Below, one piece after another: positions 3,316 to 47,032 of a stretch of DNA of 47,032 bases. The position numbers and the translations under genes were made by a program. Position 1 is the stretch's first letter; each line of letters begins with the position of its first letter. The stretch comes from a virus. The notes below the pieces were generated by a model. It was given only the letters and a program-made list of their open reading frames with translations, was not told the origin of the DNA and did not search any database. Location of the stretch: the IMG/VR virus record IMGVR_UViG_3300008448_000156, positions 1-47,032 of that record; one strand, given 5' to 3'.

Positions 3316-3317
3316 GC

Positions 3318-3351: not shown

Positions 3352-3408
3352 AAGTCCCTTGGAGAAAGGGCGAGGTGACAACTGCCTGCTTGCAGTGCCC
3401 CCATCATA

Positions 3409-22145: not shown

Positions 22146-25010
22146 ATGGACACGCTGAGTTTTTTTCAGCGAGTACTACCAAGTGAAGGCTTGTATTGCA
22201 TAGCTAGTTTTGAGGGGGACAATCCTGCACCAAGACATGGCTACTTTGATTCGGTAGAAAAACTCGCTCAGGTTGCACAGGCTCTCAATGACAGAGGGCA
22301 GAACACATACTACGCAATCTCCACATTCACGGAGAAGCGTAGAAAGCAGGAGTTCGTTGAGCGCACGAAGGTGCTTGCTATTGACGTTGACTGCGGGATA
22401 GGTAAGAACGGCAAAGCCAAACCGTTCATTGATGCGAAGGAGGGAGCGAAAGCTCTCGTGACTTTCGTTCAAGCAGTTGGGCTACCGATGCCGATGATTG
22501 TTTCGTCAGGCAACGGGCTACATGTTTACTGGATACTGGCTGATGCGATTGCGCCTGCACAGTGGAAGCCGCTTGCCAACGCTTTGAAAGAAGCATGTGT
22601 GGCTAATGGGTTCACGCCTGACATTGGTGTGACTGGTGATAGCGCACGTATTCTGAGACCGATTGGGTGTGTGAATCCCAAGGGTGGGCGTACCGCTACG
22701 TTGGTACGTGATGCGCAGGATGTGACCTATGCACAACTGTGGTCGGTGCTTGAGAAGTTTGCAGGTAGCTCATCCTATGAGCCACCCGTAGGACAGACAC
22801 GCACCAACTCGTTGCTAGATAACCTAGCAGTCAAGCATGAATACCAACCTGCCATTGCAGACAAGGTGGTCGCAGGTTGCCAACAGATTAAATGGGCAGT
22901 AGAAAATCAGAACGATGTGCTTGAGCCTATGTGGTGGAAGGTCATGGGAGTCGCCGCTTTCTGTGCTGACCCCGAAGCTACCGCCGTTAAGTGGAGTGAG
23001 CAGTACTCAGGATTCAACGAACAAGAAGTTGTATCGAAGGTCATCAACTGGAAGAACGGTGCGACAGGCCCGACAACCTGCGAGAAGTTTAGTATTGAAC
23101 GCCCTGACGGATGTAAGGGTTGTAAGTTCAAGGACAAGATTGGTAGTCCTGCAAGACTGGGCACACAGTTAGCAGAGGTGAAATCTATGGCGGCATTGGT
23201 TGACCCGATTGCCGCAGTTGTACCCGTACCCAAACCATTCAAGCGAACCACAGATGGTATGAAGATGGTGGTTGAGGAGACGGACATTGACGTATGCAAG
23301 TTCGACTTGTACCCAGTGGGGTACGGCAGAGACGAGGGACTTGGGTACGAGGTAGTACGGTTCATGTGGAATCGACCGCACGTTGGTTGGACTGAACTGG
23401 CACTACGGCAGGCGAACTTGGCACAGGGTAGTCGTGACTTCTCTACCGCTATTGCAGACCAAGGCATCCTTCTCTACAACAAGTCACAGACGGAAAATTT
23501 CCAAATGCTTCTACGTTCATACATGGAGGAATTGAAGCAACGCCGAGGACTCACAAACCTGTATTCATCAATGGGATGGAAGTCAGAGTACAACGAGTTT
23601 GTGGTTGGCAACACGCTTCTGCGCCGTGACTCCAGCGGTACTATCAATACAGAGACCATCAACCTTGCTCAAGGTATCGGCAGGATTTCTGAGGACATGT
23701 ACGGCACGAAGGGTTCATTGCAAGAGTGGACTAACTTCACCCGCATCCTTGAGACTGCTGATTTGAAACTCCACAAGTTCCTGATTGGCTTCTCGTTTGC
23801 AACACCATTGCTCAAGGTCAGTGGCTTGAAGGGTTTGATTCTGTCCTTGTACGGCAAGACTGGTGGCGGTAAGACGCTCGGTCAGTACATGATGCAGTCA
23901 GTGTGGGGCAACCCCGACCAACTCCACTTCGGTGGTAAGTTCACACAGAACAGTTTGTTCTCACGCTTGTCCCTGCATGGCAACTTACCCATGACGGTGG
24001 ATGAACTGACGATGCTTGACCGTGAGGAAGCAGGCGACCTAATCTACTGGACTTCACAGGGTAGAGACAAGGCTCGTTTGAACCGCAGTGCAGAGGAACG
24101 TGCAACCAAAGAGTGGGCAACCACCATGACGGTATCGACCAACGAGTCATTGCACAGTATGTTGTACGCAGGTGGTCACGCTACGGATGCCAAGCTCGCT
24201 CGACTGCTTGAGTTCAATGTCCATCCCCATGCACTGTTCACATCGGGTAGCCAAGTGGGTCGTCAGATTCATGCGTTCCTGATGGGCAACTATGGTTTAG
24301 CAGGGCAGGAGTTCATTCGGCGGCTGATGCCACTGGGTGTAGAAGGTATCAAGGCTATGCTCGACCATGCCATCAATGAGTTTCCTAAGAAGTATGGTGT
24401 GAACTTCAGCGGTGACGAACGCTTTTGGGAAATCGGTGTGGTGCTTGCTGACTTGGGCAACCGCCTTGCCAAAGAGTATGGGCTTATCCAGTACGACTAC
24501 GAAGACGCAACTGAGTGGGCACTGGGTGAACTGAAATCCATGAAGGTGTCTGCCGCTTCCAATCGTATGGATGCGTTCGATGCACTGGGTGAATTCATCA
24601 ACGAACATATGGATGCGACCTTGACGGTCATGCACACCCCCGGTCAGAAGCCGATGCGGGATAACAACCGACCATATATTGCTGACATCATGGTGCGTTA
24701 CGACCTGTACCGCAAGACCTACGATGGCAAGTTCGAGAGCGGCACTGTCCTCATCGAGCGAACCAAGTTGCGTAGGTGGCTCAGCAATCGTGGCTATGAC
24801 TACAAGGCATTTGTCCAAGAGTTCGAGGTCGAGGGTATCGTTGCTACACCCAAGTCACAGAAGGCGTACTTCGGTAAAGATGTTGGTATCAAGATTCCAC
24901 AATGTTATGTGGTCGGTATCAACCTCAATCACCCACGCTTAATGGGAATCTTGGATGACGCCGACCACTCCGTGGCTGACTTAACTCAAGGACAACTCAA
25001 GGTTGTTTAG
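22146..25010 (+). CDS. AEP-type primase fused to DUF927 helicase
   Basis: A 954-aa replication protein. The N-terminal primase domain of the archaeo-eukaryotic type has IDVD (D80, D82), SSGNGLHVYW (H126) and a downstream Arg-rich RILRPIG segment with NPKGG. A short Cys-containing region (about residues 313-327, CEKF to CKGCKF) links to the C-terminal part. There a DUF927-like helicase has GKTGGGKT at 570-577 and a DELT Walker B further on. It would unwind DNA and lay primers for the family A polymerase. GGGGA lies just before the ATG. Its stop codon interlocks with that of the giant late gene on the other strand. Confidence 0.85.
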   Translation: MDTLSFFQRVLPSEGLYCIASFEGDNPAPRHGYFDSVEKLAQVAQALNDRGQNTYYAISTFTEKRRKQEFVERTKVLAIDVDCGIGKNGKAKPFIDAKEGAKALVTFVQAVGLPMPMIVSSGNGLHVYWILADAIAPAQWKPLANALKEACVANGFTPDIGVTGDSARILRPIGCVNPKGGRTATLVRDAQDVTYAQLWSVLEKFAGSSSYEPPVGQTRTNSLLDNLAVKHEYQPAIADKVVAGCQQIKWAVENQNDVLEPMWWKVMGVAAFCADPEATAVKWSEQYSGFNEQEVVSKVINWKNGATGPTTCEKFSIERPDGCKGCKFKDKIGSPARLGTQLAEVKSMAALVDPIAAVVPVPKPFKRTTDGMKMVVEETDIDVCKFDLYPVGYGRDEGLGYEVVRFMWNRPHVGWTELALRQANLAQGSRDFSTAIADQGILLYNKSQTENFQMLLRSYMEELKQRRGLTNLYSSMGWKSEYNEFVVGNTLLRRDSSGTINTETINLAQGIGRISEDMYGTKGSLQEWTNFTRILETADLKLHKFLIGFSFATPLLKVSGLKGLILSLYGKTGGGKTLGQYMMQSVWGNPDQLHFGGKFTQNSLFSRLSLHGNLPMTVDELTMLDREEAGDLIYWTSQGRDKARLNRSAEERATKEWATTMTVSTNESLHSMLYAGGHATDAKLARLLEFNVHPHALFTSGSQVGRQIHAFLMGNYGLAGQEFIRRLMPLGVEGIKAMLDHAINEFPKKYGVNFSGDERFWEIGVVLADLGNRLAKEYGLIQYDYEDATEWALGELKSMKVSAASNRMDAFDALGEFINEHMDATLTVMHTPGQKPMRDNNRPYIADIMVRYDLYRKTYDGKFESGTVLIERTKLRRWLSNRGYDYKAFVQEFEVEGIVATPKSQKAYFGKDVGIKIPQCYVVGINLNHPRLMGILDDADHSVADLTQGQLKVV

Positions 25011-28000
25011 TCGGGGATGCCCGAAAGGGTTTCCTCGTCTACGCCGTAGATGCGTAGCAACTCCTTGGCTTCTGCACGACCACCTTTCGCTGACGACTTG
25101 AGGCTACGCAATGCGAGTGGCTTCTTGGCTTCACGGAAGGCTTGGCTCAAACCTTTCTCGAAGTTGCGAATCTCTAAGCGTGTGCCCTTGGTGGATTCGT
25201 TCCAGTCTTTGATGTACTCTTTGACTTCCTTCTCAGCCTCGGCGTCACCTGACAAACGAGCGGCAACTGCCTGACGAGTAGCCTCAGTCTTAATCATGGA
25301 CATGTAGGCTTGTTCTTGTGAGTCAGCCATCAACCAGTCCATCTGTGCCTGTGCACGAGATGGATACCAACCGAGAGCCTTACCAAGTATTTCCCAAGCA
25401 CTGGCGTTCTGCGCTACAACATATCCCTTGGTGTCCACAATCGCACCAGTGTCGTAGAACTTAAACGCAGTACCCAAGTTCTTGATAGCGGTCGCGGGAC
25501 TGTCGGTCAGCAAAGCACCTAGACCCTTACGCCCTGTGGCTACGGCAGGCAATGTGTTGAACGCATATTCAAACGTACCCACCAAGAAAGATGTTGGTGC
25601 ACCTGCGATGTTAACCACCTCACGCAGAATCTCTTGCTTCGTAGCCGATGGCTTGAGCAGACCAGTTCCGGGGATGATGTCGCCAAGACCCAAGCGGTTC
25701 GAGAATGAAAGACCAGTGAAGTGGTCAAGCAAACCACGCATAACGATTGGGTTAATCTCTGCTGCCAACTCGTCACCGAATACGCTACGGGTCAGACGGG
25801 CAAACTCTTTCTCAATCGAGCCGACCTTCAAGCCGAGGCGTTGTGCGATGCCGTCAACAATGTCCAAGATGTCGTCAGAACCCGGTATGCCACGCACACC
25901 AGACAACAAGAGCAACGACCCGAGCATGATGATGCGACCTTCGTAGTTCATGTTCTTCAACAACTGAACCATCAGGATTGGGTACTGCTTGTACATATAG
26001 ATGAACGACTGCAATCCACCACGGAAGAAAGCAGGGCGGTTGTACTGAGCGTAGTCACCTTGGGTAGCATCAACCGCACGAGAAGCTGCTGCACGGGCAG
26101 CAAGGTCAGCTTGGTTGTGGTCTACGCCGGATGCACGTTGGCGGTCATACTCACCACGATAGGCTGCTAGGAGCGTTGTTCGACGGTTGAACTGCTCGGA
26201 GTAGCTGAACGGGAACATCCACACCTGAATAAATTTCTGTGCGGTTGGGTTACCAGTAATCTTACGACCACGGCTAGTACCAGTCAGAGCGTTGAACTGT
26301 GCCGCATCAAGGCGTTGTTCCTCAGTCATGGTTTGGAGGAAGTTCAGTTCGGCAAAGGTCAAGCCGTCTTTGTTCTTATCCTTACCAGTGTCTTGGAGTT
26401 CCTTAATCTGTGCCTTGATGTAGTCAAGGTTGGAGTAGCGGAAGTTACCTGCCTTACGACCATAGTCAAACAACAGTGTGGCGGCACGACCTGCACCCAA
26501 GCCTAGACCAAAGCCATTCTTAGGATTGAAAGCTGAGAGGTACGCCCATGAGTTGGTCGGCAACGAAAGCATCTGCGTCACACCAGTAGCGATAGAGCCA
26601 CCGAGTTGGGCAAGAGCCGCCCATGTACGAGCAGCAACAGACCACTCGTTGTTTGTCCAAATGTCGTCAGCGTGAACGATGTCACCTGTGGATTCTTTCC
26701 AGTCGAGCAAAGACTTGGCACGTTCTTTGTACCAGTTGCCTCGCTCCACCCGCTTGCCGTCAATGGTTTCAACAGCGTTGTCGTAGTAGAACTTCTCTTG
26801 GAAATACTCACGGGCTGCAATCTCTTTTGCCTCGCCAGTGCTGCCTTCCCACTTGACACGCAGTTCTTCCAAACGAGTTGGGTCGCCTTGCCAGTTGTAT
26901 GGGTTGTCCAGTACTTCGTCATACTGGTGACGGAATTCTTTGTTGGCTGCGGTGTATGCCTGCTGCTCCAGATAAGCCGACGCACTCTTGACAACATCTT
27001 TATCCCAGCCTGCTACACCCGAACGCTTCAGGTTTGCACGAGCACGGGTGTTCTGTGCAGTAATCTTTTGCACCAAGACCTGACGCTGTTCAGGAGTGAT
27101 GTTGATACCCAAGCGGCTGAGCGAGTACATCACCTCGTCATAGTGGAGGATGTCCACAAGGGCGGGAGTCTGCTCGGCAACCGATGCAATGGCTCGCAAC
27201 TTAACTGTCTGCACATTGCCATCCGCGTCACGCATGTCGTGCTCGCCTGCAAAGATGTTGTCCAATTCGTCTTGGAGTTCCTGTGCATCTTTCTGATTGC
27301 CAGCCTTGCCGTAGAACAACGAGTCTTGCTGACCGGGGCGCAGCTTCACAGGAACATCTTGCCCGTTGACAGTCTTGTAGGCTTGGATGCGAACTTGCCA
27401 GTCACCTTCACGGATGAGGGGAACATATGAGCCAGCGATGGTTCGCTTGGCATAGAACTGGTCGTCATTGATAGAGGCGGCAAACATTGCACGTTCTTCA
27501 ATGCGGTGCTCCAGTGCCCAAATAGAACTATCCCGAATGTCGTCAAGGTCAGGGTCTATCTTGGAACGCAACTTCTTACGCATCCCACGCACAATCGTGT
27601 CAACCTCAGCGGCGGTGTAGCCTTCCACCATTTTGGTCAGGTCGCCCAATGCAAGGTCGGTGTAGAACGAGCGGGCAAACTTCATACGCAACCACTCGTC
27701 AGCATCCTCTTGAGCAGCTTCATTCATCTCGAAGCGGTTGTTCTTGTAGCCTGAGTCCTTCAGACGCATACGGTCGTACTGCTCAACCACATCCTCAATG
27801 AACTTGGTTTCCTGTGCGGTCAGCGATTGGTTGAACGCTGCACCGATACCAGTACTGATGGCTCGCTTCTGTTCGTGGATAGCACCGAGGTACTTACCAA
27901 TCAACACGTCAGCGGCAGACTTAGAGATGGCGTCATGGAACTGCAAGTACACCTGATACTCAAGGCTCTTACCTGTATAGGTCACAGTACCGTCGTCGTT

Positions 28001-31000
28001 CTCAATCACAGAACCGTCAACATCTTTGAACCAAGCAGGGGAGTCCACCATACGAGGAGCTTCGTAAGTTTTCTCGTTCATCTGTTTGGTGTAGTACCGC
28101 TTGGTGCTTTCCATGTTGCTGGCGTACTTACTTTCGAGACGCTTGATACGCAACTCGAACTCTAGCTTAGCTTCTTCATTGACAGCCGCAGCCAGTTTCT
28201 TTTGCAGACGGGCAAGTTCTCTAGCTTTACCTGCTTCCATATTGGCGAGTTCTTTGTCCCGCTGCGCACCCAGTTCCGCTTTGTATTCCTCAGTCATTGG
28301 GCGTTCTTCAGTACCCTGCTGGACTTTGAATGTGCTGCGGAATTCTTCAGGGGTCATGCGACCAACCTGCTTCAACTGGTTAAACCCTTCCACGTTGACC
28401 TTGGGCACAGGCTCAAGGTTGTCAGGGTCGTAGAACACGATGTTGTCCATCTGTGCAATCTTGGTATCCGAGACTTGGTTCATCTTGAACAGCGTTGCAT
28501 ACGCCATCAGTTCACCAGCACGGACACTTTGCTCAGGCGTTAAGCCATCACCAAAGCCAAGGAACTTAGCTTCGTGGGCAATCTTGGTCATCTCAGAGTA
28601 CTGAGTCTTGAGTTCAGTCTGACGAGCCGCTTGGTCTTGCAGTAGGGTAAATACCTTGTAGTAACCCTTGGACTTGCGAGCCATGTTGTCTTGCGTTTGG
28701 ATACCGTCAAGAACTTTCTGAACCACGTTACCCACGTTGGCAAGGACACCCTTACCCTGCTTGCGCATCTCGGCAGCTTTCTGTGAAGCACCAACGATGT
28801 CTTGGATAGAACGAGAGATGCCACCATAGATGGCGAAGTCACGGTTCACAAAGTTCTGCGCAAAGTAGGCAGAGCCTTGGGCAGCAGACTGGGCAAAGCG
28901 CAACACCTCAATGTCAGACTGCTCGGTAGCCAGTGCCTCGTTGATTTCCTTGAACAGACCAGAGGTGTTCACTTCGCTACGACCAACGCCTTGACGCACG
29001 TACTTGCGCGATAGGCTGATAAGGTAGCGAGCCGCATCGTCATTGAACGAGAAGCCTAGTTTGTTGAGTTGGTCTTTCAACCAGTTCCAAAAACGCAGGA
29101 CTGTGTTATTGTCGATGGCAGCAGCACGGTCTGCCAACACCTCCTCGACTGCTTCGAGGAATGGGATACCTTTGCCGTTCGCATAGATGTTTGCCTCATG
29201 TGTGAGATGAGGGTCAGCATCGGCAACGAACCGCAGAATCTTGTCGAGTGCTTGGTTGCTGAACAAACCACGGAAACCAACGTGACCAAGAGTCTCGTGG
29301 GCAATGATGAAGCGGGCATGTTCCTCAGAGTGGATGAGGTCTGCAAACAGAACCACGTTGTCACCCCAAGCCATACCTGCGGCGTTAACCGCTTCGATGT
29401 CACCATCCTTACGAGCCTTTGCTGCCGCTTCAAACAGGGCAGGGTTGCTACGCTTCATGTCTTGGATGTTCGAGAACACAGACACCCGTGGCTTACGAGC
29501 GTACTTAGAGATGACACGGGCTGCGAACAAGCGCAGTGGGCCAGCCTTCATAGGATTCAGAGGCTTACCATCCGAACGGAAGGCACGCCAGTCGTCATCA
29601 CTGTTAGGCTTGCGGTCATAGAAAGGGTCGAACTGGAGGTCATCCAGTGTCGTTTGGTTCTCGGTATCTTCCATGTCACGCAACTCTTTGCGTGCGGACT
29701 CATGCTTAGCCACGAAGTCAGACTTGGTAGTCTTCTCCTCAGCCGTAGTGTTCGGGATGAAGTACGATGTGCCAGCAGGCTGGGTCACAAATGGGTTTCC
29801 ATCAGCGTCAAAGAAGTCTTTGATGCGACCACGCTTGCCAACTGCAAAGGTGTCATCGTCAATCTTGGCGTAGTACTTCTTGAGCTTGTCAACCAACTGT
29901 TGGCGGTTAGGCCACTGTGGATTGGAGTCAATGAAGTTGGCAAGGCTTTCCTCAGGAGAGATGTCAGAGTTAGCCCCAATGGTTTCACCAACCACTGCTT
30001 CTTGCGTTGCCTTAGCCCCGGGCATACGCACATTCTTCATGACGTTCACATCGTTGAGCAAGCCAGCATCGGCAAGCAAACCATACAGACGGGAATTTGG
30101 TTTGATGGCGTCTGCGTCCAACGCAACTTCACGCAAAGCGGCTACATAGTCACCCTTCGGTACACCGCCTTCATCCGTCAAGAACTTTGTGGATGTCTTC
30201 AGTAGGTATGTGCGGTCTTTACCATAGACATAGGCAGACACAATGTCATACAACGCCTCGGCGTAAGCCGCTGCGTTCTTCGTAGTTTCAGCCGTCTCGA
30301 TAGCCATATCGAGTTCTTCGTTAGCCTCTAAGGTTTCTGCCGAGGTTACTGGCGCACCACGTTTGGCAGGCTGACTTTCAACCACAGCACCTTGCTCTGT
30401 CGCAGCCATAAGCTGACCAACCATTGCAGCCATACCACTTGGGCCTTTCTGCAACTTGGCTGCTTTCGGTGCAGCTTCACCCTTCGCCTCAGTTTTCTTC
30501 GGCTCTTTCTTCAGGGTCTTCTTACCACCCTTAGGAGGTGTAGGCTCAGTCGGTTCGGTTGGCTCGGTAGCCGTAGTTACTTCTGCTTGCTTCGCCCCGC
30601 GCTTGAGAGACTTGCCGCTACCGCTTGCTTCAGTGCCGCCGCCTTGCTCTTGGGTCTTGGGCTGTTGCCCAGCTTTCCGCCCGCCTTGTACTCCCGCATT
30701 ATCTTGCTGACGTTTTGGCTGACGACCTTGTTGCTGCTTCCCTTCTTGAGTGGCATCTGGTTCTCCTTGTGCTTCGGGTTGTAAAAAGTCTCCATCATCA
30801 AACTGACCATCGAACACAGTGCCGTCAGCATCCTCAAAGCGACCAGTACCATGTGGCTTGCCGTCCTTGAACTGACCTGTGTATGTGGAAGTGTCAGAGT
30901 AAATCAGAGTACCTTGACCATTTGGCACACCCTTCTTCAACTGACCTGTATATACAGAGCCGTCTTCAAAGGTGATAGTGCCAGTCTTTTCTTTCTTCAG

Positions 31001-33346
31001 AGCAGCACCCTTGGCTGCTTCGGATGTAACCGCAGTGACAGGTGCACCTGTCGGTGCAATCTGGGTAGCGCCTTGCTGCACTGTTGGTACAACTTGTTGT
31101 CGTGTGCCTGCACTCTTGAGGGCGGCCACGGTAGGCTGACCTTGCTGAGTGAACATCGCCATCTGTGGAGACGAACGCAAGTCCTGACGTGGGATTACAG
31201 GAGTCCCAGTGGGTTCAGGCAACTGCGTACCTACACCACGGCGTAAGCCTTCAGCACGGGATGGGCGTGGGGCTTCTCTACGGCTGAACAATTCCAACTG
31301 CTGGGGTGCACGCACGGGCAGCGGTCTTGTAGGAAGTTGTTGCTGTGTCTGTTGCTGCTGCGCCCGGGCCGCATCCATAGCTTGCTGAGCAATGTCGAGT
31401 TGCCGCTGCGCATCCGCTTGCACCTGCATCCTGTTGAGGTCTGCCTCACGCTGTGCGGCTGCTGCGGATTGGGCTTGTGCCTGAGCCTGACGGCTTTGCG
31501 CCAGATTCATTGCCTGCTGCATGGCAGGGTTTACCACAGGGGCAGCTTGGTCAGTAAAGCCTACACCGCTAGGAGCGGGAGGGGCAAACTGCAACGCCAA
31601 CTGGTTAGGGTCGGTGAACTGTTGCTGCGGGCCAATCTGAGCAGCTTGTTCTTGAGGGCTGACTTCACGCCATGATTGGGTAGTTACATCCCACACCCGT
31701 TGTGGCTGCACATTGCCTTGCATACTGCGAGCCTTGGCTTCAGCCACAGGGATACCGCCGAGGTCAAGTACACCTTGTGCACCACCGAACTGGTTAGGCT
31801 GAACTTCACCTGTGTAGATGCGGTCGCCCGGCGTAGATGCACGGACACCTTGAGCACCAGCCACAAAGTCAGGGCGTGCGCCCATACCACCAGCGGGGCT
31901 TGGCCCCCCGATAGGACTAATTTCACGGGAGTCGCTAGGTGTTGGGTCGGTCGTTTGACCGGGGTTCAACAAGTTGGTAGGTTGTTTACCGATAGGGCCG
32001 CGTCGTAGGTTCGCACCAGCACCAATCGTTCCACCAACACCAAAGCCAGCGGCAAAGGATTCAACGAGTCGCTTCTGTACATCAGGGTCATTAAAGTCCT
32101 GACCAGTCATACCAACGAGCAAACTCTCTTGTCCAAGTTCAGTCAGACCTTCAGACGTACCGCCGACTACTGCGCCTTTTCCTCCACGCTTGAGCAGTTC
32201 TGCACCACGTAAGCCTTGCGTCCCGAGGAAAGTTTTCCCCTGTATATCTTGTAGGTTGGTCGCCCCACCTCGTGCGGACAAACCGCCAGCACCAAACAAG
32301 CGGGAAGCGAGTAGGAACTCAGGGACAGATTCGAGGATGGCGTAGGGGACTGCGCCAGACAAAGCGGCAAGACGAGCATTGGTATCATCAGCACCTGACC
32401 CTTGTTCACGGAACTCGCCGTAGATGTCAGCCGCACCAGTGGCGTAATTCTGACCTACGCTGAAGATGGTTGCACCTGTAAGACCAGCGGCCTCACGTAG
32501 CAACTTAGTCTCAGTAACATCAAGGGCTTCACCTGCTGCACGTTTCTTCAGCGCAGCAAGAACAGATTGTTTGAAGGCGGCTTTGCCCGCCAAGCCAGCA
32601 AGGGCAGCACCAGCACCAGCTACGGGGTTAGCTGTGGCAGCAGTACCAGCAAAGAAACCAGCAGCCGCAGTAGCTACGGACTCAAGAATGTTCGGGCCTT
32701 GTTGGGCGACAGTTGCAGCCAGCCAGTCGATTGCACCCTTGGTAGAGTCAATCTCAGAGAACTCACGGCGGTACGGAAGGTTCTTTGCTAGGTCACCACG
32801 GATGGTGTCTGTACCCATCTGCTGGTCAACGATACGTTGCCCTGTTTCCTCAGCCCCCATAAGCTGAAGCCCACGACCAGCGAGTAATTGCAACTGGTCA
32901 ACACCGATACCAAAGTTCTTGGACATGAGGCGACCAAGACCGGGGTTGCGGATTGTGCTGGCAATCTGACCATATGCTTGTGGAGTGAGCGTTACCCAGT
33001 CACCACCTTGTGGCATACCCACCGACGGGCGGTCAAGCAACTGCTCTGCACGCAGAGTCATGTCGGAGTCATCCTCGTCAAAGGTGACACCTTGTACAAA
33101 CAACTTCTTCTGTGATGGGCTATACGCGATAGCCGGAGGACGCTTGACCTGTGGCAGTTCAAACTGTGTCAGCTTCTGCCCAACAGCCCCCATCGTAGCG
33201 ATGTCGGCAAGACCCTTCTGAAGTGCATCTGCCCCCGTGGAGGAGGCAGGATTCAAGAAGGTATACGGACTCATCTGACTGGCAACTGAGCCACCAGAGT
33301 CAGAGTAAAGAGGATTTTCAAATGACTGCGGGGCTTTAGTCGCCAT
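25007..33346 (-). CDS. Giant polyvalent-type internal virion protein with MORN repeats
   Basis: A 2779-aa protein, last of the late genes, in the place of T7 gp16. In order: a Gly/Ala-rich hydrophobic segment (about 219-255); a long Gln/Pro-rich stretch (about 450-750); three MORN repeats (about 789-853, with YTGQLKKGVPNGQG, YTGQFKDGKPHGTG and FDGQFDDG); a basic low-complexity linker; a zincin-like motif HETLGH (H1350, E1351, H1355) with a possible third ligand in EAVEEVLAD (1398-1406); long helical regions; and a C-terminal helical part (about 2410-2500) resembling LPD38 of phage polyvalent proteins. Probably ejected with DNA to breach or remodel the envelope and host. Domain names are from motif reading, not searches. 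AAGGTG lies 4 nt upstream. Confidence 0.85.
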   Translation of the reverse strand: MATKAPQSFENPLYSDSGGSVASQMSPYTFLNPASSTGADALQKGLADIATMGAVGQKLTQFELPQVKRPPAIAYSPSQKKLFVQGVTFDEDDSDMTLRAEQLLDRPSVGMPQGGDWVTLTPQAYGQIASTIRNPGLGRLMSKNFGIGVDQLQLLAGRGLQLMGAEETGQRIVDQQMGTDTIRGDLAKNLPYRREFSEIDSTKGAIDWLAATVAQQGPNILESVATAAAGFFAGTAATANPVAGAGAALAGLAGKAAFKQSVLAALKKRAAGEALDVTETKLLREAAGLTGATIFSVGQNYATGAADIYGEFREQGSGADDTNARLAALSGAVPYAILESVPEFLLASRLFGAGGLSARGGATNLQDIQGKTFLGTQGLRGAELLKRGGKGAVVGGTSEGLTELGQESLLVGMTGQDFNDPDVQKRLVESFAAGFGVGGTIGAGANLRRGPIGKQPTNLLNPGQTTDPTPSDSREISPIGGPSPAGGMGARPDFVAGAQGVRASTPGDRIYTGEVQPNQFGGAQGVLDLGGIPVAEAKARSMQGNVQPQRVWDVTTQSWREVSPQEQAAQIGPQQQFTDPNQLALQFAPPAPSGVGFTDQAAPVVNPAMQQAMNLAQSRQAQAQAQSAAAAQREADLNRMQVQADAQRQLDIAQQAMDAARAQQQQTQQQLPTRPLPVRAPQQLELFSRREAPRPSRAEGLRRGVGTQLPEPTGTPVIPRQDLRSSPQMAMFTQQGQPTVAALKSAGTRQQVVPTVQQGATQIAPTGAPVTAVTSEAAKGAALKKEKTGTITFEDGSVYTGQLKKGVPNGQGTLIYSDTSTYTGQFKDGKPHGTGRFEDADGTVFDGQFDDGDFLQPEAQGEPDATQEGKQQQGRQPKRQQDNAGVQGGRKAGQQPKTQEQGGGTEASGSGKSLKRGAKQAEVTTATEPTEPTEPTPPKGGKKTLKKEPKKTEAKGEAAPKAAKLQKGPSGMAAMVGQLMAATEQGAVVESQPAKRGAPVTSAETLEANEELDMAIETAETTKNAAAYAEALYDIVSAYVYGKDRTYLLKTSTKFLTDEGGVPKGDYVAALREVALDADAIKPNSRLYGLLADAGLLNDVNVMKNVRMPGAKATQEAVVGETIGANSDISPEESLANFIDSNPQWPNRQQLVDKLKKYYAKIDDDTFAVGKRGRIKDFFDADGNPFVTQPAGTSYFIPNTTAEEKTTKSDFVAKHESARKELRDMEDTENQTTLDDLQFDPFYDRKPNSDDDWRAFRSDGKPLNPMKAGPLRLFAARVISKYARKPRVSVFSNIQDMKRSNPALFEAAAKARKDGDIEAVNAAGMAWGDNVVLFADLIHSEEHARFIIAHETLGHVGFRGLFSNQALDKILRFVADADPHLTHEANIYANGKGIPFLEAVEEVLADRAAAIDNNTVLRFWNWLKDQLNKLGFSFNDDAARYLISLSRKYVRQGVGRSEVNTSGLFKEINEALATEQSDIEVLRFAQSAAQGSAYFAQNFVNRDFAIYGGISRSIQDIVGASQKAAEMRKQGKGVLANVGNVVQKVLDGIQTQDNMARKSKGYYKVFTLLQDQAARQTELKTQYSEMTKIAHEAKFLGFGDGLTPEQSVRAGELMAYATLFKMNQVSDTKIAQMDNIVFYDPDNLEPVPKVNVEGFNQLKQVGRMTPEEFRSTFKVQQGTEERPMTEEYKAELGAQRDKELANMEAGKARELARLQKKLAAAVNEEAKLEFELRIKRLESKYASNMESTKRYYTKQMNEKTYEAPRMVDSPAWFKDVDGSVIENDDGTVTYTGKSLEYQVYLQFHDAISKSAADVLIGKYLGAIHEQKRAISTGIGAAFNQSLTAQETKFIEDVVEQYDRMRLKDSGYKNNRFEMNEAAQEDADEWLRMKFARSFYTDLALGDLTKMVEGYTAAEVDTIVRGMRKKLRSKIDPDLDDIRDSSIWALEHRIEERAMFAASINDDQFYAKRTIAGSYVPLIREGDWQVRIQAYKTVNGQDVPVKLRPGQQDSLFYGKAGNQKDAQELQDELDNIFAGEHDMRDADGNVQTVKLRAIASVAEQTPALVDILHYDEVMYSLSRLGINITPEQRQVLVQKITAQNTRARANLKRSGVAGWDKDVVKSASAYLEQQAYTAANKEFRHQYDEVLDNPYNWQGDPTRLEELRVKWEGSTGEAKEIAAREYFQEKFYYDNAVETIDGKRVERGNWYKERAKSLLDWKESTGDIVHADDIWTNNEWSVAARTWAALAQLGGSIATGVTQMLSLPTNSWAYLSAFNPKNGFGLGLGAGRAATLLFDYGRKAGNFRYSNLDYIKAQIKELQDTGKDKNKDGLTFAELNFLQTMTEEQRLDAAQFNALTGTSRGRKITGNPTAQKFIQVWMFPFSYSEQFNRRTTLLAAYRGEYDRQRASGVDHNQADLAARAAASRAVDATQGDYAQYNRPAFFRGGLQSFIYMYKQYPILMVQLLKNMNYEGRIIMLGSLLLLSGVRGIPGSDDILDIVDGIAQRLGLKVGSIEKEFARLTRSVFGDELAAEINPIVMRGLLDHFTGLSFSNRLGLGDIIPGTGLLKPSATKQEILREVVNIAGAPTSFLVGTFEYAFNTLPAVATGRKGLGALLTDSPATAIKNLGTAFKFYDTGAIVDTKGYVVAQNASAWEILGKALGWYPSRAQAQMDWLMADSQEQAYMSMIKTEATRQAVAARLSGDAEAEKEVKEYIKDWNESTKGTRLEIRNFEKGLSQAFREAKKPLALRSLKSSAKGGRAEAKELLRIYGVDEETLSGIPD

Positions 33347-33354: not shown

Positions 33355-35445
33355 TTACCTACCTTGTTGTTGAGGAGCGTTCACCGCACTCCAAATGCTC
33401 CTATCAACACCAGACACTCGTTGAGCGTTTACGCCAAGGTCTACTGTAGCACCGTTGATGGTCGTTGTCTTGTTTTGCGTATCAATCACAAAGACGTCAC
33501 CAAGACCGTTGCTGTAAACTACCTTACCATCACCTGAGTTAGTAGAAGCTGCCTTAAAGCCAGACAACTCGAGTTTTTTCTCAGCCAGTTTGATGTTCCC
33601 TTTGATGATTTCAAGTTGAACTTCACGAGCAGTTTGAAGTGTTTGATTGGAGACAGCCTTGTTGGTTTCCTCACGGATACGCAAGTTGGATTTGAATTCT
33701 TCTGTACCACGCTCGACTTGCAAATTAGCAAGCTGCTTACGATACTCAGAATCCACTTGGGTACGAACAAGCTGCTCAACCTGTGAGCCTTCGAGTGCAG
33801 CCTTAGCAACCTTACCGTTGACATATAAGTCGAACTTACCATCAGGGCGTTGCATAACTTGGTGTGGAGAACCAGTGAATGTAGACAGCACAGACATGGC
33901 ACGACTGAAGTTGCCAGTAGTAGCGCCCTCATACACACCGATGTCAGCTTGGTTCTTGTACAAGCCAAGGTCAAGAGCTTGAATCTTAGACACTGCTTCC
34001 CATGCTTTGTCGCCCATACCGTACTGGTTGAACAACGCCACTTGCTTTTGCAGCGCAGCACGAGTCGTCAGAATCTGTTGAATCTGTGGGTTGCGAGCAC
34101 TTGCGTCAAGCTGAGCAGGGCCATACATCGTGCCATCTTTAGAAGGCTGAACTGGTACAGCATTAGACGCAGCAGTTGCAACATCAGTAGCAGTGCCAGT
34201 GGCTACTGCTTGAGGGACTGTCTGAGTAGCTGGCGCAGCCGCTGGTGCTTGTTTACCGCCATTCATAAACGACAGAACTTTAGGAATATAGTTGCGTGTT
34301 TCCGCAGGCATCTTGTCCATGCCTTGACGTTGTACGTTACCAATACCCCAGTTGTACGCAGCCAGAGCAGTCTGCAAATCACCATTGGATGACTTCAACA
34401 AATCACGCAGCAAACGTGCCGCACCATCTGCTTCAGAGTTCAGGTCGTTGACTTTGACTTTGTACTGTTTCGCAGTATCAGGCATGAACTGGAAGTAGCC
34501 TTGTGCACCAGCAGAAGATGTTTGGTTAGGAATACCACGGGACTCAGCCATCATCACAGCGTTCAGCAAACCAGCGGGGAGTTTGTATTTCTCCTCCAGC
34601 TTTTGGAAAGTTTGCGGAGCAGCTTTGATGTCTGCTTCAAATTTTTGCTGGGCAGCCCGTGTACGGGTAGCTTCACCAGTCTTCAAACGCTCAAGCAGTT
34701 GTGCTTCAGTTACTGACTGGTTTTCTGCGTCTGACCTACGCAAGCGGTCGGTAAAAGGCGTAATTGAACCACTGCCGGGGACAGTGACGCTTGTAACGTC
34801 TGGGTCGTAGAGACCTATGGCTCTACCAAAACGGGCAAAGTTCATTGCGTTTGCTGCGCTTTCGACTCCTTTAGCAGCAGCAGTAAACGGCAGCGCGGCA
34901 ATATCAAAAGCAGCCGCAGGCGGTGCAGCGACAGCCGTATCAATACGGCTAAGTCTACGGCGGTCGTTTTCTATCTGTAAGCGTCTAAGGCGTTCTTGCT
35001 GCGGTAGAGCTTGGAACTCAGCAGCAGTTAACTGGTCAGTAGCGACAGCAGATAGTTGGGCAGGAGTACGTGGTGCAGCCGCAGGAAGTTGTGGTACAGC
35101 AGAAGCAGCCGCAGGCGGTCTAGCCGCAGCAGGTGCAGCATTAGAAGGCTGTGCCACAGGTCGTGTAGGAGCGGCAGCAACAGGTGCTGCGTTAGCGGCA
35201 GCAGGTGCAGTAGGCGCATTGGGGTTACCAATGACAGTGCCCGGAGATTGCACAAACTCTGGTATAGCAACATTGGCTGCATCAACCGCACCCTCGCCCA
35301 TGCGAGAACGAATCTCCATTAAGCGATTCGCTTCCTGTACCTGCATCAAAGTCTGGCGTTGCTGGAGCATTGCGTCTTCAGCTTGCCGCTGACGATTCGC
35401 AACAATACCAGCCCCACTGACCAGTTGTCCGAAATTTAGAGCCAT
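33355..35445 (-). CDS. Internal virion protein with lytic transglycosylase domain
   Basis: A 696-aa protein in the T7 gp15 position. An SLT-type lysozyme-like domain spans about residues 285-390: MMAESRG with catalytic Glu at 301, GYFQFMPDTA, and AAYNWGIGN near 360. The N-terminal part is Ala/Pro/Gln-rich (about 60-150), and the C-terminal 300 residues are helical and mixed. In T7 the muralytic domain is in gp16; here it lies in this protein instead. It should be packaged in the virion and open the peptidoglycan during DNA entry. AAGGAG lies 6 nt before the ATG. Confidence 0.9.
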   Translation of the reverse strand: MALNFGQLVSGAGIVANRQRQAEDAMLQQRQTLMQVQEANRLMEIRSRMGEGAVDAANVAIPEFVQSPGTVIGNPNAPTAPAAANAAPVAAAPTRPVAQPSNAAPAAARPPAAASAVPQLPAAAPRTPAQLSAVATDQLTAAEFQALPQQERLRRLQIENDRRRLSRIDTAVAAPPAAAFDIAALPFTAAAKGVESAANAMNFARFGRAIGLYDPDVTSVTVPGSGSITPFTDRLRRSDAENQSVTEAQLLERLKTGEATRTRAAQQKFEADIKAAPQTFQKLEEKYKLPAGLLNAVMMAESRGIPNQTSSAGAQGYFQFMPDTAKQYKVKVNDLNSEADGAARLLRDLLKSSNGDLQTALAAYNWGIGNVQRQGMDKMPAETRNYIPKVLSFMNGGKQAPAAAPATQTVPQAVATGTATDVATAASNAVPVQPSKDGTMYGPAQLDASARNPQIQQILTTRAALQKQVALFNQYGMGDKAWEAVSKIQALDLGLYKNQADIGVYEGATTGNFSRAMSVLSTFTGSPHQVMQRPDGKFDLYVNGKVAKAALEGSQVEQLVRTQVDSEYRKQLANLQVERGTEEFKSNLRIREETNKAVSNQTLQTAREVQLEIIKGNIKLAEKKLELSGFKAASTNSGDGKVVYSNGLGDVFVIDTQNKTTTINGATVDLGVNAQRVSGVDRSIWSAVNAPQQQGR

Positions 35446-35455: not shown

Positions 35456-37111
35456 TTAACCGCGACCGATGTTTAAAGTCAAACCAGTACCAGATGCTTT
35501 TTCTCCACCCGTGAATGTCCCGAATAGGTCACCGATGTCACCAGCAGCTTGACGACGGCGGCGGTCTGCCGCATCGTACAAACCACCAACATAAGAACCG
35601 TACTGCAACGAAGAAGCATTACCCGAAGTAGGTAGCACGTTAAGGCCAGCAGTCTGAGTACGGAGTTTGTTCTGCTGCGCAGCGTCTGCACCTTGGAGGT
35701 AAGCAGTCTGACCGCCAGTCGAGATACCCAAGTCAAAGCGGCGTTCCTCTGCACGGCGCAAGCCAGCACGCTGGTTGCCGTATTTACCAAGGGCTTCACG
35801 TTTTGCACGAGCACCAGCAGTCTGAACAGCACGTTGACTTTGCAGACCGAAGTAGGCTGGGTCAAAGTACTTAGACTCACCAATCATGTTTTGAGCTTCT
35901 TGCAAACGCTGGTTGAACAACTCTTGGTTAGTCTCACGCAACTGACGGAGTTCAGCCGTTTGCTGGTTGAGCAGAGCTTTTTCTTCATCAGACAAGCCAT
36001 CACCCGCAATCGCAGAGCCAGCAATCTGACCAGCAGCACGGAGGAACAAGTCAGCTTGATTACGTGGGTCAGTAAATTTCTGCTTGAGGGCTTCAGTAAA
36101 TGTCGTAGGTGCAGCAACAGCAGCACCACCAGCCGCAGTAGTACCACCAGCAGGAGCGGCTATAGTTTGTGCAGGAGTAGTTCCTTTTGCGGCTACGTTG
36201 ACCATCTCACCTGACCGCACAGCAGCGTTAGCAGCAGCTTGCTCCATTGCAGGAGTAGCTTGCAAACCAGCTTGTGCGTAGCTAGGGGCAGAACCAGCAA
36301 CCGCAGTTGTTGGGTCGTAGTACATACCACCACCACCAAACGCAGCAGCGTTACCGCCAATTGCACCGGGGGTGTTAACAGCCATTGTGCCGGACGCATT
36401 GATTGCATCAGCAAGACCTTGAGCGCCGACACTGCCAGAACTCAACTGACTAGCCAGTGCGCTGTCAACAGTACCGCCATAAGCGATGTTCTGAGTAGCG
36501 ATTGTGCTACCGCTCATAGGGTCAATATACGCACCAAGTTCAGGAGACCAGACCCCAGTACCAGAACCGACGTTAGTTACAACAGCGTTAGCTGTCGGCG
36601 CAGTAGTAACAGGAGTACCTGCGGAAGTAATGCTAGTAGCACCAGTACCGACGTTCTGTCCTTGGGCTGTAATACTGCCAGCTTGTGAGTAACCACCGAT
36701 ACCGCCGCCGATTGCGCCAAACAATGCGCCTCGACCTACGTCACCACCAGTAACCTTAGCAGACACAGCGCCTAGACCAGCACCCACAATCGCAGAACCA
36801 ATCACAGCACCAGCCGTAGTACTCAGAGCCGCAGTAACAAACGGCATCGAAGCAGCAATCGCTGTACTAGAAGCAATCGCACCGACAATCGCAGGTGCAG
36901 CAAATGGAATCGCAACGGCAGCAACAAGGCCGACCACTGCTTTAAGACCACCGCCGCCGCCACCTTGTGGGCGAATACCCATAGCTTGGACAAGTGCCTT
37001 ACGTTGCATCGGAGGCAGGTCGCCACCAAAAGCCGCTTCGGGCAGTTCAGGAATACCCATAGCCAGCATCTGTTTGCTGGTTGGCATACGGACAAATTTA
37101 GTTGCGTTCAT
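35456..37111 (-). CDS. Ala/Gly-rich internal virion protein (T7 gp14-like position)
   Basis: A 551-aa protein. After a short N-terminus ending in a Gly run, residues about 55-130 are strongly hydrophobic (VVGLVAAVAIPFAAPAIVGA and following) and can form membrane-inserting helices, as in ejection proteins that make the outer-membrane pore. The centre is a Gly/Ala/Thr-rich disordered region. The C-terminal 170 residues are charged and helical (RQLRETNQELFNQRLQEAQN). Position directly before the transglycosylase core protein matches T7 gp14. The start overlaps the preceding stop as ATGA, with GGAGG 7 nt upstream. Function inferred from composition and order. Confidence 0.75.
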   Translation of the reverse strand: MNATKFVRMPTSKQMLAMGIPELPEAAFGGDLPPMQRKALVQAMGIRPQGGGGGGLKAVVGLVAAVAIPFAAPAIVGAIASSTAIAASMPFVTAALSTTAGAVIGSAIVGAGLGAVSAKVTGGDVGRGALFGAIGGGIGGYSQAGSITAQGQNVGTGATSITSAGTPVTTAPTANAVVTNVGSGTGVWSPELGAYIDPMSGSTIATQNIAYGGTVDSALASQLSSGSVGAQGLADAINASGTMAVNTPGAIGGNAAAFGGGGMYYDPTTAVAGSAPSYAQAGLQATPAMEQAAANAAVRSGEMVNVAAKGTTPAQTIAAPAGGTTAAGGAAVAAPTTFTEALKQKFTDPRNQADLFLRAAGQIAGSAIAGDGLSDEEKALLNQQTAELRQLRETNQELFNQRLQEAQNMIGESKYFDPAYFGLQSQRAVQTAGARAKREALGKYGNQRAGLRRAEERRFDLGISTGGQTAYLQGADAAQQNKLRTQTAGLNVLPTSGNASSLQYGSYVGGLYDAADRRRRQAAGDIGDLFGTFTGGEKASGTGLTLNIGRG

Positions 37112-38579: not shown

Positions 38580-38927
38580 TTATCCTTTCAATTGGGCGAT
38601 GAGCGCATTAACGGTATTCCGTAAGTTCGCCACATCATTTGCAAGAAGTTGAACATCGTTAAGTAACTTTCCGTAGTCGTCCAAATCCGGCACGTTTTGC
38701 CCGCTAATAGTATACCCCTTACCCGTCGCAGATACACGAGAAAATGTTGGGTTGGGTGCGGTGTTTACACGGAGTTGGCTTCGAGTGACTGCCTTACTAG
38801 CCAAGTCAGCCTCGCCTCGGATACCTGCTAAGAGTTCCACGTTTTCTTTCATGGCACGCAGAATCTGCCCTTGCCACTCAGTGACGTTACCAGTAGGTAT
38901 AGAAGGTATGGCTGTGAATCGGCTCAT
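38580..38927 (-). CDS. Small tail protein with C-terminal coiled coil
   Basis: A 115-aa protein. The N-terminal part has EWQGQILRAMKENVELL, a helix. A beta-like middle carries SRVSATGKGYTISG, and a C-terminal heptad helix follows (LLNDVQLLANDVANLRNTVN). It starts one base inside the nozzle gene stop, indicating coupling. Likely a minor tail or trimeric coiled-coil component; no family recognised. Confidence 0.7.
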   Translation of the reverse strand: MSRFTAIPSIPTGNVTEWQGQILRAMKENVELLAGIRGEADLASKAVTRSQLRVNTAPNPTFSRVSATGKGYTISGQNVPDLDDYGKLLNDVQLLANDVANLRNTVNALIAQLKG

Positions 38928-41545
38928 TATGCTGTCCTCAATCCAAATGGGGTTTCGCCAATATGGATGGCTCGGACTCGCGCAGAACCAGACACGCCCA
39001 CCTCGAAGGTATCAGAGCGGTATCCTGACGGCAGACGGAACACATCATCTGTAGACACTGTGGCTTGGAAGGCAAGCTGCTTATCCACCCACAGGCGGAA
39101 GGTAATTGGCAATGTACCTTCGATAGTTTTAAACGTACGTGTCAAGTTGTCGCCATTGATGACCACAGAGTTGAGCGTACCAAAGTTGACGATGCGGTTG
39201 CCTAGACTGTCGGTGCGGTCGTATGGGCCGTTCATGTCGCCAAGACCTTTCAAGCACTCAATCGTGGCAGAGCCGTCAGATGTAGTACCAACATCACCAC
39301 CCACATCAGCGTAGGTGAATGTCGTAGCATTGACGACCGTGACAACCGAGTCAGTCGTATTGAACGTAGCACCGACTGGGGTGACAAATCCGGTCACACT
39401 TACACGGCAACCTGTTTGTAGTTGGTGAGCAGTGGCTGTTACAACTGTCGCTACGTTCGATGTACGGGCGTATGACACCGAGATAGATGTATGGTTGTAA
39501 TCATTCCACACACCAAGGTTGTACGCAGGCACGCCAGCGTTGTACGCAGCAATCGCTTCTGCCTCAGCGTCAGGCGTAGCGTAGTCAGCAATGATACGAG
39601 CCGCACCAAGGTTCATGAAGTCCTTGGTCACAATGGTCTTAGATTTCCACTCTGCCGCTGACAGAGGCTGAGTTGTTTTATCCCACTCATAGATATTGCC
39701 AAGGTTGTCAGCAATATAGTAGAGGGCGTTCCCTTGAGGGTCGTACCACGCAGCAGTAAATTTGTAGTTGATTTGCACAAAGAAGCCGCCGATACGGTCG
39801 TCACGCTCAAAGATGAACGAGGCTGTACCGTCAGAGCCAAAGTACTTGCCGTTGTAAAAACGACCCGTGACATTGGTCAAGTCAACTGCTTCAGGCCAAG
39901 TATCCCAGTCGTGCACGAACTTCGTAATCAAGTCCATACCACCCGATGGGTTGTACACAGCCAGTCCACCAAACGTCACGTACGCTACGCCATAACCCAT
40001 GTTCACAATAGAACGCTTTGACAGGCAGGGGTAGAGTGTGTCGATACGTGCGTACGCCATCGTCGCAGGACTGTTACCTGAGACTTGGTATGGGTACTCG
40101 TCTGTCATGACGAGGATGTATCCACCTACGGAAGCGACACCTACGATGTCGTATTCAAACGTCAGCGCGTATTTGGCAGGCCAAGCATGTGGAACATTTG
40201 GCTCGGAAAAGAATAACTGATTACCATCAAAACCAACCAGAATGTTATTCTGTGCTGCGATAAGACCTTTAAGGTTTTCAGGAGGTGGGTCATATTCGGC
40301 TGTCCCCAGTGAGTCAAACAAACTCCGAGAGTCAAAGTCATCGGTGAAGGTGTAACTACCATCGCCCCAGTAACGAGCAGGCTTATCCAAATCTTCAGCA
40401 ACATCGTGGTACACCGTGCCAGCAGTCTCAGCTTTGTCAGCTACGTTACCTGCTGTCTGGGCGTATGTGAACGTGTAGTCGTCGATGATGTCAAGTACGA
40501 CACCACCTGTAATGTTGAACGATGAATCAGTACAACCGCTGAGTTTGAAGCGGTCGTCAATAGCCAGATTGTGGTGGTTGTTCAAACGTACCCGCGACAC
40601 ATTGCCTGTACGGCTAACGCGAGATGTACCCGTTGGAAACCACAAGGTGGCGAGGCGGAAGTACTCTGTACCCGCAGACGAAGCAAGCGTACGATACAAG
40701 CGCACACCACGCACAAAGTTGCTGCCAGTAGGTTTAGCAGTCGGCAAGTTGCTGACTGTGACTAGCTGACCTTCTTTGATATACAAGTTGTCTGATGGTT
40801 CAGACGCAATAGATTCTTCTTCCCACGGTGTATACCATGTATAGACATAGTTCCGAGGGACTGTGTTACCAGCAAGAGAGATACGTCCTGCCGTGTCAGA
40901 TGTTGTGCCGACTTGCTCACCGGGACTGAAATACGTGAAGGTCGTGTCATTAACTACGGTCACTTCAGCGTTGGTCGCATTGAATGTAGCAACAGAAGAA
41001 GTTGCCGCAGGGAAACCGCTGATGGTGATAATCATGCCTGTGCGCATACCATGCGCAGCCGAGGTCACAACCGTGGCGTAGTTACCAGCATCACGAGCAC
41101 GGCTAACAGATTCCTTCTGCGCAAACGATGTAGCTGTTGTAGTCAGCACCGTCTCAGGAAGTTGCAAACCTAGGTCGTACGAGTTGTTTGGATACGGCAC
41201 ACCAGTCTGGGTAGCCAACTCATAGTTGCTGACCTTAGGTACACCGTCGCCTGTGTAGTAGAAACGCTGCTCTCGGTCGTCTGAAGCAGAGGCGGTAATG
41301 ATGTCAACGTCAGTTGCCCAAGTCAACCAAACCAGTGCACCAGTGTCGGGGTTGCGCAAAGCGTGCAGCGTCTTGATGTCACCCACACGGTCTACGTTAC
41401 CAGCAAGGAATGGCAGACGATATGGAATCAAATCGCCAGAGTACAGCTTGACGTTAAACGCAATCTGAGCAGCGGCGTCAGGCAACAACTCCGAAGCAAT
41501 CTTCGGAGCTTCACCTAAAAATTTGACTATCTTTACGGCTGCCAT
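38927..41545 (-). CDS. Tail nozzle-like protein with repeated beta modules
   Basis: An 872-aa protein in the place of T7 gp12. The start, VKIVKFLGEAPKIASELLPD and then IAFNVKLYSGDLIPYR, resembles nozzle or stabilisation proteins of podophages, and the middle has the Trp/Tyr/Asp-rich beta-propeller-like sequence of that family. Inserted in it are three copies of a beta module (about residues 148-223, 310-378 and 690-775), recognisable from VVNDTTFTY, IIDDYTFTY and VVNATTFTY. It should form the end of the short tail, binding fibres and closing the DNA channel. AAGGG lies 6 nt upstream. Family assignment is by resemblance and gene order. Confidence 0.8.
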   Translation of the reverse strand: MAAVKIVKFLGEAPKIASELLPDAAAQIAFNVKLYSGDLIPYRLPFLAGNVDRVGDIKTLHALRNPDTGALVWLTWATDVDIITASASDDREQRFYYTGDGVPKVSNYELATQTGVPYPNNSYDLGLQLPETVLTTTATSFAQKESVSRARDAGNYATVVTSAAHGMRTGMIITISGFPAATSSVATFNATNAEVTVVNDTTFTYFSPGEQVGTTSDTAGRISLAGNTVPRNYVYTWYTPWEEESIASEPSDNLYIKEGQLVTVSNLPTAKPTGSNFVRGVRLYRTLASSAGTEYFRLATLWFPTGTSRVSRTGNVSRVRLNNHHNLAIDDRFKLSGCTDSSFNITGGVVLDIIDDYTFTYAQTAGNVADKAETAGTVYHDVAEDLDKPARYWGDGSYTFTDDFDSRSLFDSLGTAEYDPPPENLKGLIAAQNNILVGFDGNQLFFSEPNVPHAWPAKYALTFEYDIVGVASVGGYILVMTDEYPYQVSGNSPATMAYARIDTLYPCLSKRSIVNMGYGVAYVTFGGLAVYNPSGGMDLITKFVHDWDTWPEAVDLTNVTGRFYNGKYFGSDGTASFIFERDDRIGGFFVQINYKFTAAWYDPQGNALYYIADNLGNIYEWDKTTQPLSAAEWKSKTIVTKDFMNLGAARIIADYATPDAEAEAIAAYNAGVPAYNLGVWNDYNHTSISVSYARTSNVATVVTATAHQLQTGCRVSVTGFVTPVGATFNTTDSVVTVVNATTFTYADVGGDVGTTSDGSATIECLKGLGDMNGPYDRTDSLGNRIVNFGTLNSVVINGDNLTRTFKTIEGTLPITFRLWVDKQLAFQATVSTDDVFRLPSGYRSDTFEVGVSGSARVRAIHIGETPFGLRTA
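39245..41110 (-). repeat. Three diverged beta-module repeats inside the nozzle gene
   Basis: Coding copies lie near 41110-40876, 40620-40400 and 39481-39245. Each encodes a V-x-x-AHG/AHQ/HHN turn, a hydrophobic SG/TG segment, a FN or ITGG strand and a final D/N-x-TFTY strand followed by VG-T or AG-V. They are diverged at the DNA level, so duplication is old or they were acquired as modules. Confidence 0.6.
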
Positions 41546-41554: not shown

Positions 41555-42019
41555 TTATGCTTGGAGACCCGGCAAATACACAGTCTTGCCGTTCTCTTTA
41601 ACGGCGGTCAAGGATTGCTTCTTCAAATTACTTGGTACGTACGACACATGCACCCAGCCGGAGTCAGGAACACCACGAGTGTAGAACTCTAGAATGACTT
41701 GGGTGAACGCTAGGTTGTTCTGAATCCACTCAGCCAACTCATGGTTAGGTACACCAGCAATCTCGATGTCAGCAGCCTGACCCATACAGTGGTCAGAAGT
41801 CTTTGAACCACCAACGGCAGCATTGACTTCAGGCGCACGGTAGCCGGAGCTAACCTTGACGCTCTTGCCGTAGTGGTCACGAATCGGTTGTAACACCTTC
41901 TCGCAGAGCACTTTGAGGTTTGCAGTGACCTCAGGCGTAGGCTCATTGTTCAGACCTTGACGCAGAGCAGTCTCGCTCTTGGTCAATTCGTTGAGTGTAA
42001 AGTTGGCGGAGAGGTTCAT
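41555..42019 (-). CDS. M15 family D-Ala-D-Ala peptidase endolysin
   Basis: A 154-aa peptidase of the M15_3 type that cuts peptidoglycan cross-links for host lysis. Zinc ligands are H77 and D84 in SDHCMGQAADIE and H124 in GWVHVSY, and SSGYRAP precedes them as expected. There is no signal peptide, so it needs the holin encoded just upstream. Its start overlaps the holin stop by 4 nt (ATGA). The length is complete for a single-domain endolysin. Confidence 0.92.
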   Translation of the reverse strand: MNLSANFTLNELTKSETALRQGLNNEPTPEVTANLKVLCEKVLQPIRDHYGKSVKVSSGYRAPEVNAAVGGSKTSDHCMGQAADIEIAGVPNHELAEWIQNNLAFTQVILEFYTRGVPDSGWVHVSYVPSNLKKQSLTAVKENGKTVYLPGLQA

Positions 42020-46696: not shown

Positions 46697-46698
46697 GA

Positions 46699-47007
46699 TT
46701 ACTCCGTAGGCTTAGGATACTTGGCTTTGACAGCTTGTACCTTCGCCAGCATTTCGGCAGCAGCATCGCCACCTTTCCACAAAGCGTCAAGCTGGTCACC
46801 AATTGAAGGGTACTCTGGGGCACGCTTGCGTGCGTACTCTTTGTTGCGATACTCTAACTGTAAACGCTGCAACTCTGCGGCGGCTTCCGACTCAGTAGGC
46901 ATAGGAATATCAGGAGACAGCCAAGTGACCCCGCTATATTCATTACCCTCAGACGAAAATTTGGCTTGCGGTCTTAGAGAAATAAGCGCATCAATAATAT
47001 CAAACAT
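46699..47007 (-). CDS. Tail fibre assembly or XkdW-like small protein
   Basis: A 102-aa protein. The ATG at 47007 has AGGAG 8 nt upstream; a GTG at 47010 is a minor alternative. The second half has ARKRAPEYPSIGDQLDALWK and a final VQAVKAKYPKP, a pattern frequent in small proteins next to phage tail fibre genes and similar to XkdW-type proteins. It likely helps fold or attach the fibre. The N-terminus may be complete, as the Shine-Dalgarno sequence lies in the last bases of the window. Confidence 0.75.
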   Translation of the reverse strand: MFDIIDALISLRPQAKFSSEGNEYSGVTWLSPDIPMPTESEAAAELQRLQLEYRNKEYARKRAPEYPSIGDQLDALWKGGDAAAEMLAKVQAVKAKYPKPTE

Positions 47008-47032
47008 CACTGAATCTCCTGAACAATAAAAA

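Follow-up and report, generated by a model that had tools for sequence, protein, structure and literature searches.

The main new result of this analysis is that the giant protein encoded in the window, which is the whole virus record of 47,032 bases, appears from comparison with its relatives to be modular, with MORN repeats as an exchangeable block. On the best reading, the protein is a chassis with variable cargo between residues ~450 and ~1250, and the MORN module is the cargo of the window lineage. The 2779-residue open reading frame had been proposed, with no strand given, by an earlier sequence-only reading; it was confirmed, on the minus strand (33346-25007). Several domains of unlike activity share the chain (zincin-like, MORN and PLxRFG, with ART-PolyVal in the relative L061). 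Phage records gave no near match to the window at the DNA level, and two profile scans of the genome collection returned no relatives of the giant protein. Its parts are as follows.

25007-33346, minus strand: giant putative ejection or polyvalent protein, 2779 aa (ORF and relatives)
31997-33346, minus strand: N-terminal part, residues 1-450, Ala/Gly-rich
30992-31996, minus strand: linker A, residues 451-785, 16% Gln (composition)
30782-30991, minus strand: MORN module, residues 786-855, three repeats (Pfam, PDB sequence, model)
30347-30781, minus strand: linker B, residues 856-1000, fast-evolving and mosaic
28973-29602, minus strand: zincin-like metallopeptidase domain, residues ~1249-1458 (motif, model)
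29282-29299, minus strand: HETLGH (HEXXXH), residues 1350-1355
29138-29155, minus strand: EAVEEV, residues 1398-1403, with invariant A1399, E1401 and E1402
25145-26389, minus strand: PLxRFG C-terminal domain, residues 2320-2734 (phrog_11358, NF032893)
25877-25933, minus strand: hydrophobic stretch, residues 2472-2490 (Kyte-Doolittle)

Much of what had been read from the letters alone was borne out, including the three MORN repeats, the HETLGH and EAVEEV motifs, the Gln-rich low complexity (16% Gln in residues 451-784 and 13% in 856-1000) and the helical C-terminus. The MORN module is recognised by Pfam (PF02493, E 2.4e-10; 40.1 bits, cut-off 22.5; two stretches pass on their own) and by sequence match to PDB entries. 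The YxG/FxG cores lie at residues 799, 822 and 845, 23 apart, and the MORN-like pattern was observed twice, against 0.0005 times per shuffle when the protein was shuffled 2000 times. Confidence in the AlphaFold model of residues 780-1500 is low on average (mean pLDDT 54.5), but residues ~790-849 form a beta meander at pLDDT 80-90. Foldseek aligned this part with T. brucei MORN1 (6t4r; E 7.9e-6), with a deviation of 1.1 A across 70 columns, while the best MORN superposition in the VIA second look was to a MORN2 chain (Z 12.1). Residues 140-480 of the N-terminal part gave no Pfam match.

Modularity is seen in how the MORN block is distributed among relatives. When every member was searched with Pfam, MORN was present in 11 of the 20 close members and absent in nine, or present in 9 of 16 after collapsing the four pairs whose protease stretches do not differ (L003/L004, L011/L012, L010/L029 and L025/L026). 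Repeat contigs of earlier loci (L014-L023, L028, L033-L039, L041-L048, L050-L051, L070, L072-L078 and L080-L081) were counted once, L040 and L049 do not span the region, and L071, L079 and L082, which were found by searching with MORN, were excluded from the 11 of 20. Members L010, L024-L027 and L029 show a clean alignment gap at the MORN block between shared flanks, and L030-L032 carry other linker sequence in place of the MORN region. An extra block in L030 looked ADP-ribosyltransferase-like by eye, had no Pfam match and is not claimed here. The MORN label has to change three times on the protease tree, and supported branches require two or more of these changes, a test that includes L082 and so leans on the MORN-based search.

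MORN also occurs on a second backbone. L082 carries it (Pfam E 1.6e-7) in a protein that falls in a different clade from the window by its protease stretch and C-terminus: identity to the window protein is 59% in MORN against 39% in the protease stretch and 38% in the C-terminus, and the C-terminus is 66% identical to that of L062. The L082 N-terminus is equally close to the two groups (~41% identity), and the first linker of L082 resembles the window's group only (45-50%). What L082, which sits on a long branch, received may therefore have been MORN plus the linker, or all of the N-terminal third. At positions 6658-14544 of L082 the giant gene is interrupted and appears as three ORFs, through either a real mutation or a sequence error.

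Similar differences occur elsewhere between otherwise close relatives. For example, L061 and L062 are mostly 83-100% identical, falling to 62-78% in parts of the linker, and L061 holds an extra block of ~170-190 residues that contains an ART-PolyVal domain (E 1.3e-10, above cut-off). L055 and L056 diverge sharply between residues ~530 and ~1170. The pair L066 and L068 was considered as a clean cargo swap and set aside, since the entire N-terminal third differs between them and the remainder is 88-100% identical, which points to recombination instead. A second zincin-like HELGH motif precedes the conserved HEXXXH domain in L053 (~residue 980) and L056 (~residue 1000); the best Pfam matches there are eCIS_core in L053 (E 0.0044, below cut-off) and only DUF4771 in L056 (E 0.062).

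The end of the chain places the protein among the polyvalent proteins. Residues 2320-2734 match NCBIfam NF032893 'PLxRFG' (E 6.3e-45; 153.8 bits, cut-off 100). The end had earlier been called LPD38-like, a label that we dropped: Pfam LPD38 did not appear with the whole window protein (threshold E 1), with its final 497 residues (threshold E 10) or among the families matched by C-terminal segments of 24 members (threshold E 0.1). In the structural model, the final 1200 residues are mostly helical (mean pLDDT 69.5). Among viral structures, Foldseek gave 35 matches to the C-terminal half at E<=0.001 with low TM-scores (0.13-0.40); six rows carry names of large polyvalent proteins, and two Roseobacter phages contribute an 'Internal virion protein D'. 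A profile search of the PDB gave six matches, all at E 0.12 or worse. No PDB fold matched at E<=0.001, and this and the low TM-scores count against the explanation that we favour. The DarB-like, truncated relative L059 shares both the protease motif and the C-terminal end.

The surrounding genes are consistent with a protein of the ejection type.

33355-35445, minus strand: 696-aa putative ejection protein with an SLT transglycosylase domain (Pfam SLT, E 1.3e-17)
35456-37111, minus strand: 551-aa Gly/Ala-rich, putative small ejection protein (position and composition only)
38927-41545, minus strand: 872-aa protein of the phrog_511 'internal virion protein' family (E 1.5e-107)
22146-25010, plus strand: primase/helicase-like gene, convergent, with a 4-base overlap with the giant gene

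The 872-residue protein, which we take to be the probable tail nozzle, resembles proteins of Bcep22-like, Vibrio and other podoviruses, and the 551-residue protein had no family match passing a cut-off. The giant gene is the last, after the tail genes and the two smaller ejection-type genes and in the same direction, and relatives show the same gene order wherever the locus extends far enough. A small M15-type peptidase, likely the endolysin, lies among the tail genes (41555-42019, Pfam E 2.5e-22). Terminase and portal genes occupy the left end of the window (1-4797) and a tail-fibre gene the right end (45740-47032); two small plus-strand ORFs at 5773-6042 and 7078-7335 look mutually paralogous. 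No major capsid gene was found among the ORFs searched, a subset of those in the window, and the contigs of several relatives reach 54-56 kb, suggesting that the window record may be incomplete.

Among known systems, the nearest comparison is gp60 of Pseudomonas phage H66 (3787 aa, F116 group), which shares the PLxRFG C-terminal domain (30% identity over the aligned part), is likewise last in a block of structural genes and has a record note that begins 'verified by mass spectrometry as part'. It differs in carrying LPD23, LPD3 and a methyltransferase-like part with no MORN match, and the genes that precede it have no SLT match, unlike those of the window. Domains are described as swapped between ejection proteins in a review of these proteins (PMC8954989), which fits the position of the SLT domain in the neighbouring gene. 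A DarB-like protein, JC1 gp69, was reported in purified virions (PMC9144972); the window protein lacks the helicase-methylase match of DarB-like antirestriction proteins (P1 DarB, Bcep22-like phages), and the 47 records matching it in tblastn include no Burkholderia phage. The virion RNA polymerase of N4 (gp50) is described as an N-terminal part, cargo, a HExxH zincin-like domain and a large helical C-terminal domain (PMC12633501), a layout similar to that of the window protein, and each gene is the last of its block. However, N4 gp50 has HEXXH where the window protein has HEXXXH and no polymerase match, and C-terminal homology to the N4 polymerase was sought and not found (hhalign probability 0.2 with 11 N4-like sequences), so that we treat the resemblance as one of layout only.

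Taken together, the PLxRFG end, the DarB-like relative, the gene order with its SLT neighbour and the H66 gp60 record argue for a polyvalent or ejection-type protein, as had been proposed from the sequence. The explanation that we favour, with reasonable though far from full confidence, is that a short-tailed phage encodes it as its final and largest ejection protein, polyvalent and DarB-like, with a cargo region in which MORN is the cargo. The chassis would comprise the N-terminal part, the low-complexity linkers, the HEXXXH zincin-like domain and ~1300 mostly helical residues ending in PLxRFG. Such a protein would be packaged in the head and leave through the tail together with the products of the two neighbouring genes; its C-terminal half would join a DNA-entry complex, and the protein is probably injected with the phage DNA. 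We infer its presence in virions, its ejection, its proteolysis and the substrate of this, and the partner of the MORN module.

The zincin-like domain follows the proposed cargo region. HETLGH has three residues between Glu and His and is thus HEXXXH rather than HEXXH; the HExxGH pattern was observed once against 0.001 times per shuffle (2000 shuffles of the protein). Across 24 sequences the pattern A-H-E-x-x-G-H-x-G-x-R, followed ~50 residues on by A-x-E-E, is invariant, and the HEXXXH and the following Glu motif each lie on a predicted helix in the AlphaFold model. In the VIA second look, residues ~1248-1458 matched lethal-factor zincins at Z 6.5-7.3 and 8-10% identity, a moderate match, Z below 8 being no proof. 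No zincin was among the best 50 Foldseek PDB matches to the first model, which are filled by MORN-type rows, and a PDB profile search of the same region returned 29 sequences of MORN type and no zincin. No Pfam peptidase rose above its cut-off (Peptidase_M48, 13.9 bits against 20.3). Of the profile searches and structure predictions proposed with the sequence-only reading, those for MORN succeeded in both sequence and fold, that for a zincin found a moderate structural match and no Pfam peptidase, and those for the C-terminus found neither LPD38 nor a PDB fold at E<=0.001. A HEXXXH set is described among the metallopeptidases of polyvalent proteins by Iyer et al. (PMC5512222), who arrived at the same lethal-factor zincin structure via profile search.

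The protease motif is kept in all 20 close members, the window included, and in 15 of 18 further loci; the printed ORFs of the other three are without it, two being fragments and that of L058 not being the one matched. For L052-L059 one of the two search patterns contained the protease motif, which biases this set towards it, whereas L060-L069, ten loci found via the C-terminal domain, have it in eight, the other two being fragments without the region. A protease that stays constant while the cargo changes fits self-processing or cargo release, which are among the options named by Iyer et al. (PMC5512222). The metallopeptidase would then cut its own chain, its own linker being the simplest substrate, and the cut would free the cargo or mature the chain. 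We tentatively consider, as a possibility short of an expectation, that in the ejection proteins of this podovirus group the cargo bay stands before a self-processing HEXXXH metallopeptidase and that the MORN block, exchanged among lineages through recombination within or near the linker, is a non-enzymatic cargo that enters the bacterium and captures or clusters a host protein. The same conservation beside varying cargo could also suit an effector that cuts a host protein after entry, with MORN helping to find the substrate, and host targets are again an option named by Iyer et al. (PMC5512222). This appears doubtful, as the same domain occurs beside very different cargo, which fits self-processing better than it fits one fixed host target, though the domain may still cut something in the host or the virion.

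On the explanation that we favour, the MORN cargo would bind a protein partner or drive oligomerisation. MORN repeats are often assumed to bind lipids or membranes, and the sequence-only reading had proposed that they anchor the protein to the host membrane as the DNA enters, with the zincin cutting a target in the host or the virion. Junctophilins are among the structural matches to the MORN part, which lends this proposal some support, as does the report that T. brucei MORN1 bound individual phospholipids and co-purified with phosphatidylethanolamine (PE) from E. coli (PMC7725318). However, the same study, which is the source of several of the best structural matches to the module, reported that MORN1 dimerises and bound neither membranes nor vesicles, and proposed protein-protein interaction (PMC7725318). 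In the giant protein, MORN is missing from 9 of the 20 close members, the module is acidic (17% D+E against 9% K+R), and the only 19-residue stretch with a mean Kyte-Doolittle hydropathy above 1.4 (residues 2472-2490) sits inside the C-terminal domain. As MORN is optional and acidic, and MORN1 was reported without membrane binding, a role in protein interaction is likelier than a membrane anchor, which we consider improbable.

The module also looks to be under selective constraint, judging from codon comparisons. In three pairs (window against L002, L003 and L007) dN/dS was 0.062-0.072 for MORN, close to the protease (0.045-0.072), and 0.10-0.16 for linker A and 0.30-0.48 for linker B; the MORN values rest on 70 codons without error bars and are indicative, and against L011 synonymous change was saturated in MORN, hence no ratio is given. 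It is very unlikely that MORN is a functionless neutral passenger left in the linker by recombination, as its place in a low-complexity mosaic linker and its occurrence on two backbones might suggest, given this protease-like constraint against that of linker B.

MORN in this setting is unusual, as had been anticipated. A tblastn search with the MORN piece, which detects short repeats poorly, gave no match in 50,697 phage records at E<=1e-3, and at E up to 10 it gave seven weak phage records, the best coming from a Streptococcus phage and annotated as a MORN protein. One paper states that phage endolysins can contain MORN repeats. In viral contigs, a 1015-residue protein with seven MORN stretches (L083, 6571-9615; L084, 66-3110; Pfam E 1.4e-42) has them adjoining phage tail lysozyme and peptidoglycan-binding domains, a setting unrelated to that of the window. 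In open-access papers we found none that joins a MORN repeat with a polyvalent protein and no related paper on MORN in phage ejection, and the accessible main text of Iyer et al. (PMC5512222), supplements aside, does not mention MORN.

A MORN cargo would be non-enzymatic, unlike most domains discussed for polyvalent proteins. The relatives of the giant protein provide a natural with-and-without series, in which related ejection proteins differ by one block (MORN, ADP-ribosyltransferase or nothing), and with this series one can directly test the substrate of the HEXXXH domain in polyvalent proteins, and the idea that such proteins serve as chassis whose cargo can be exchanged.
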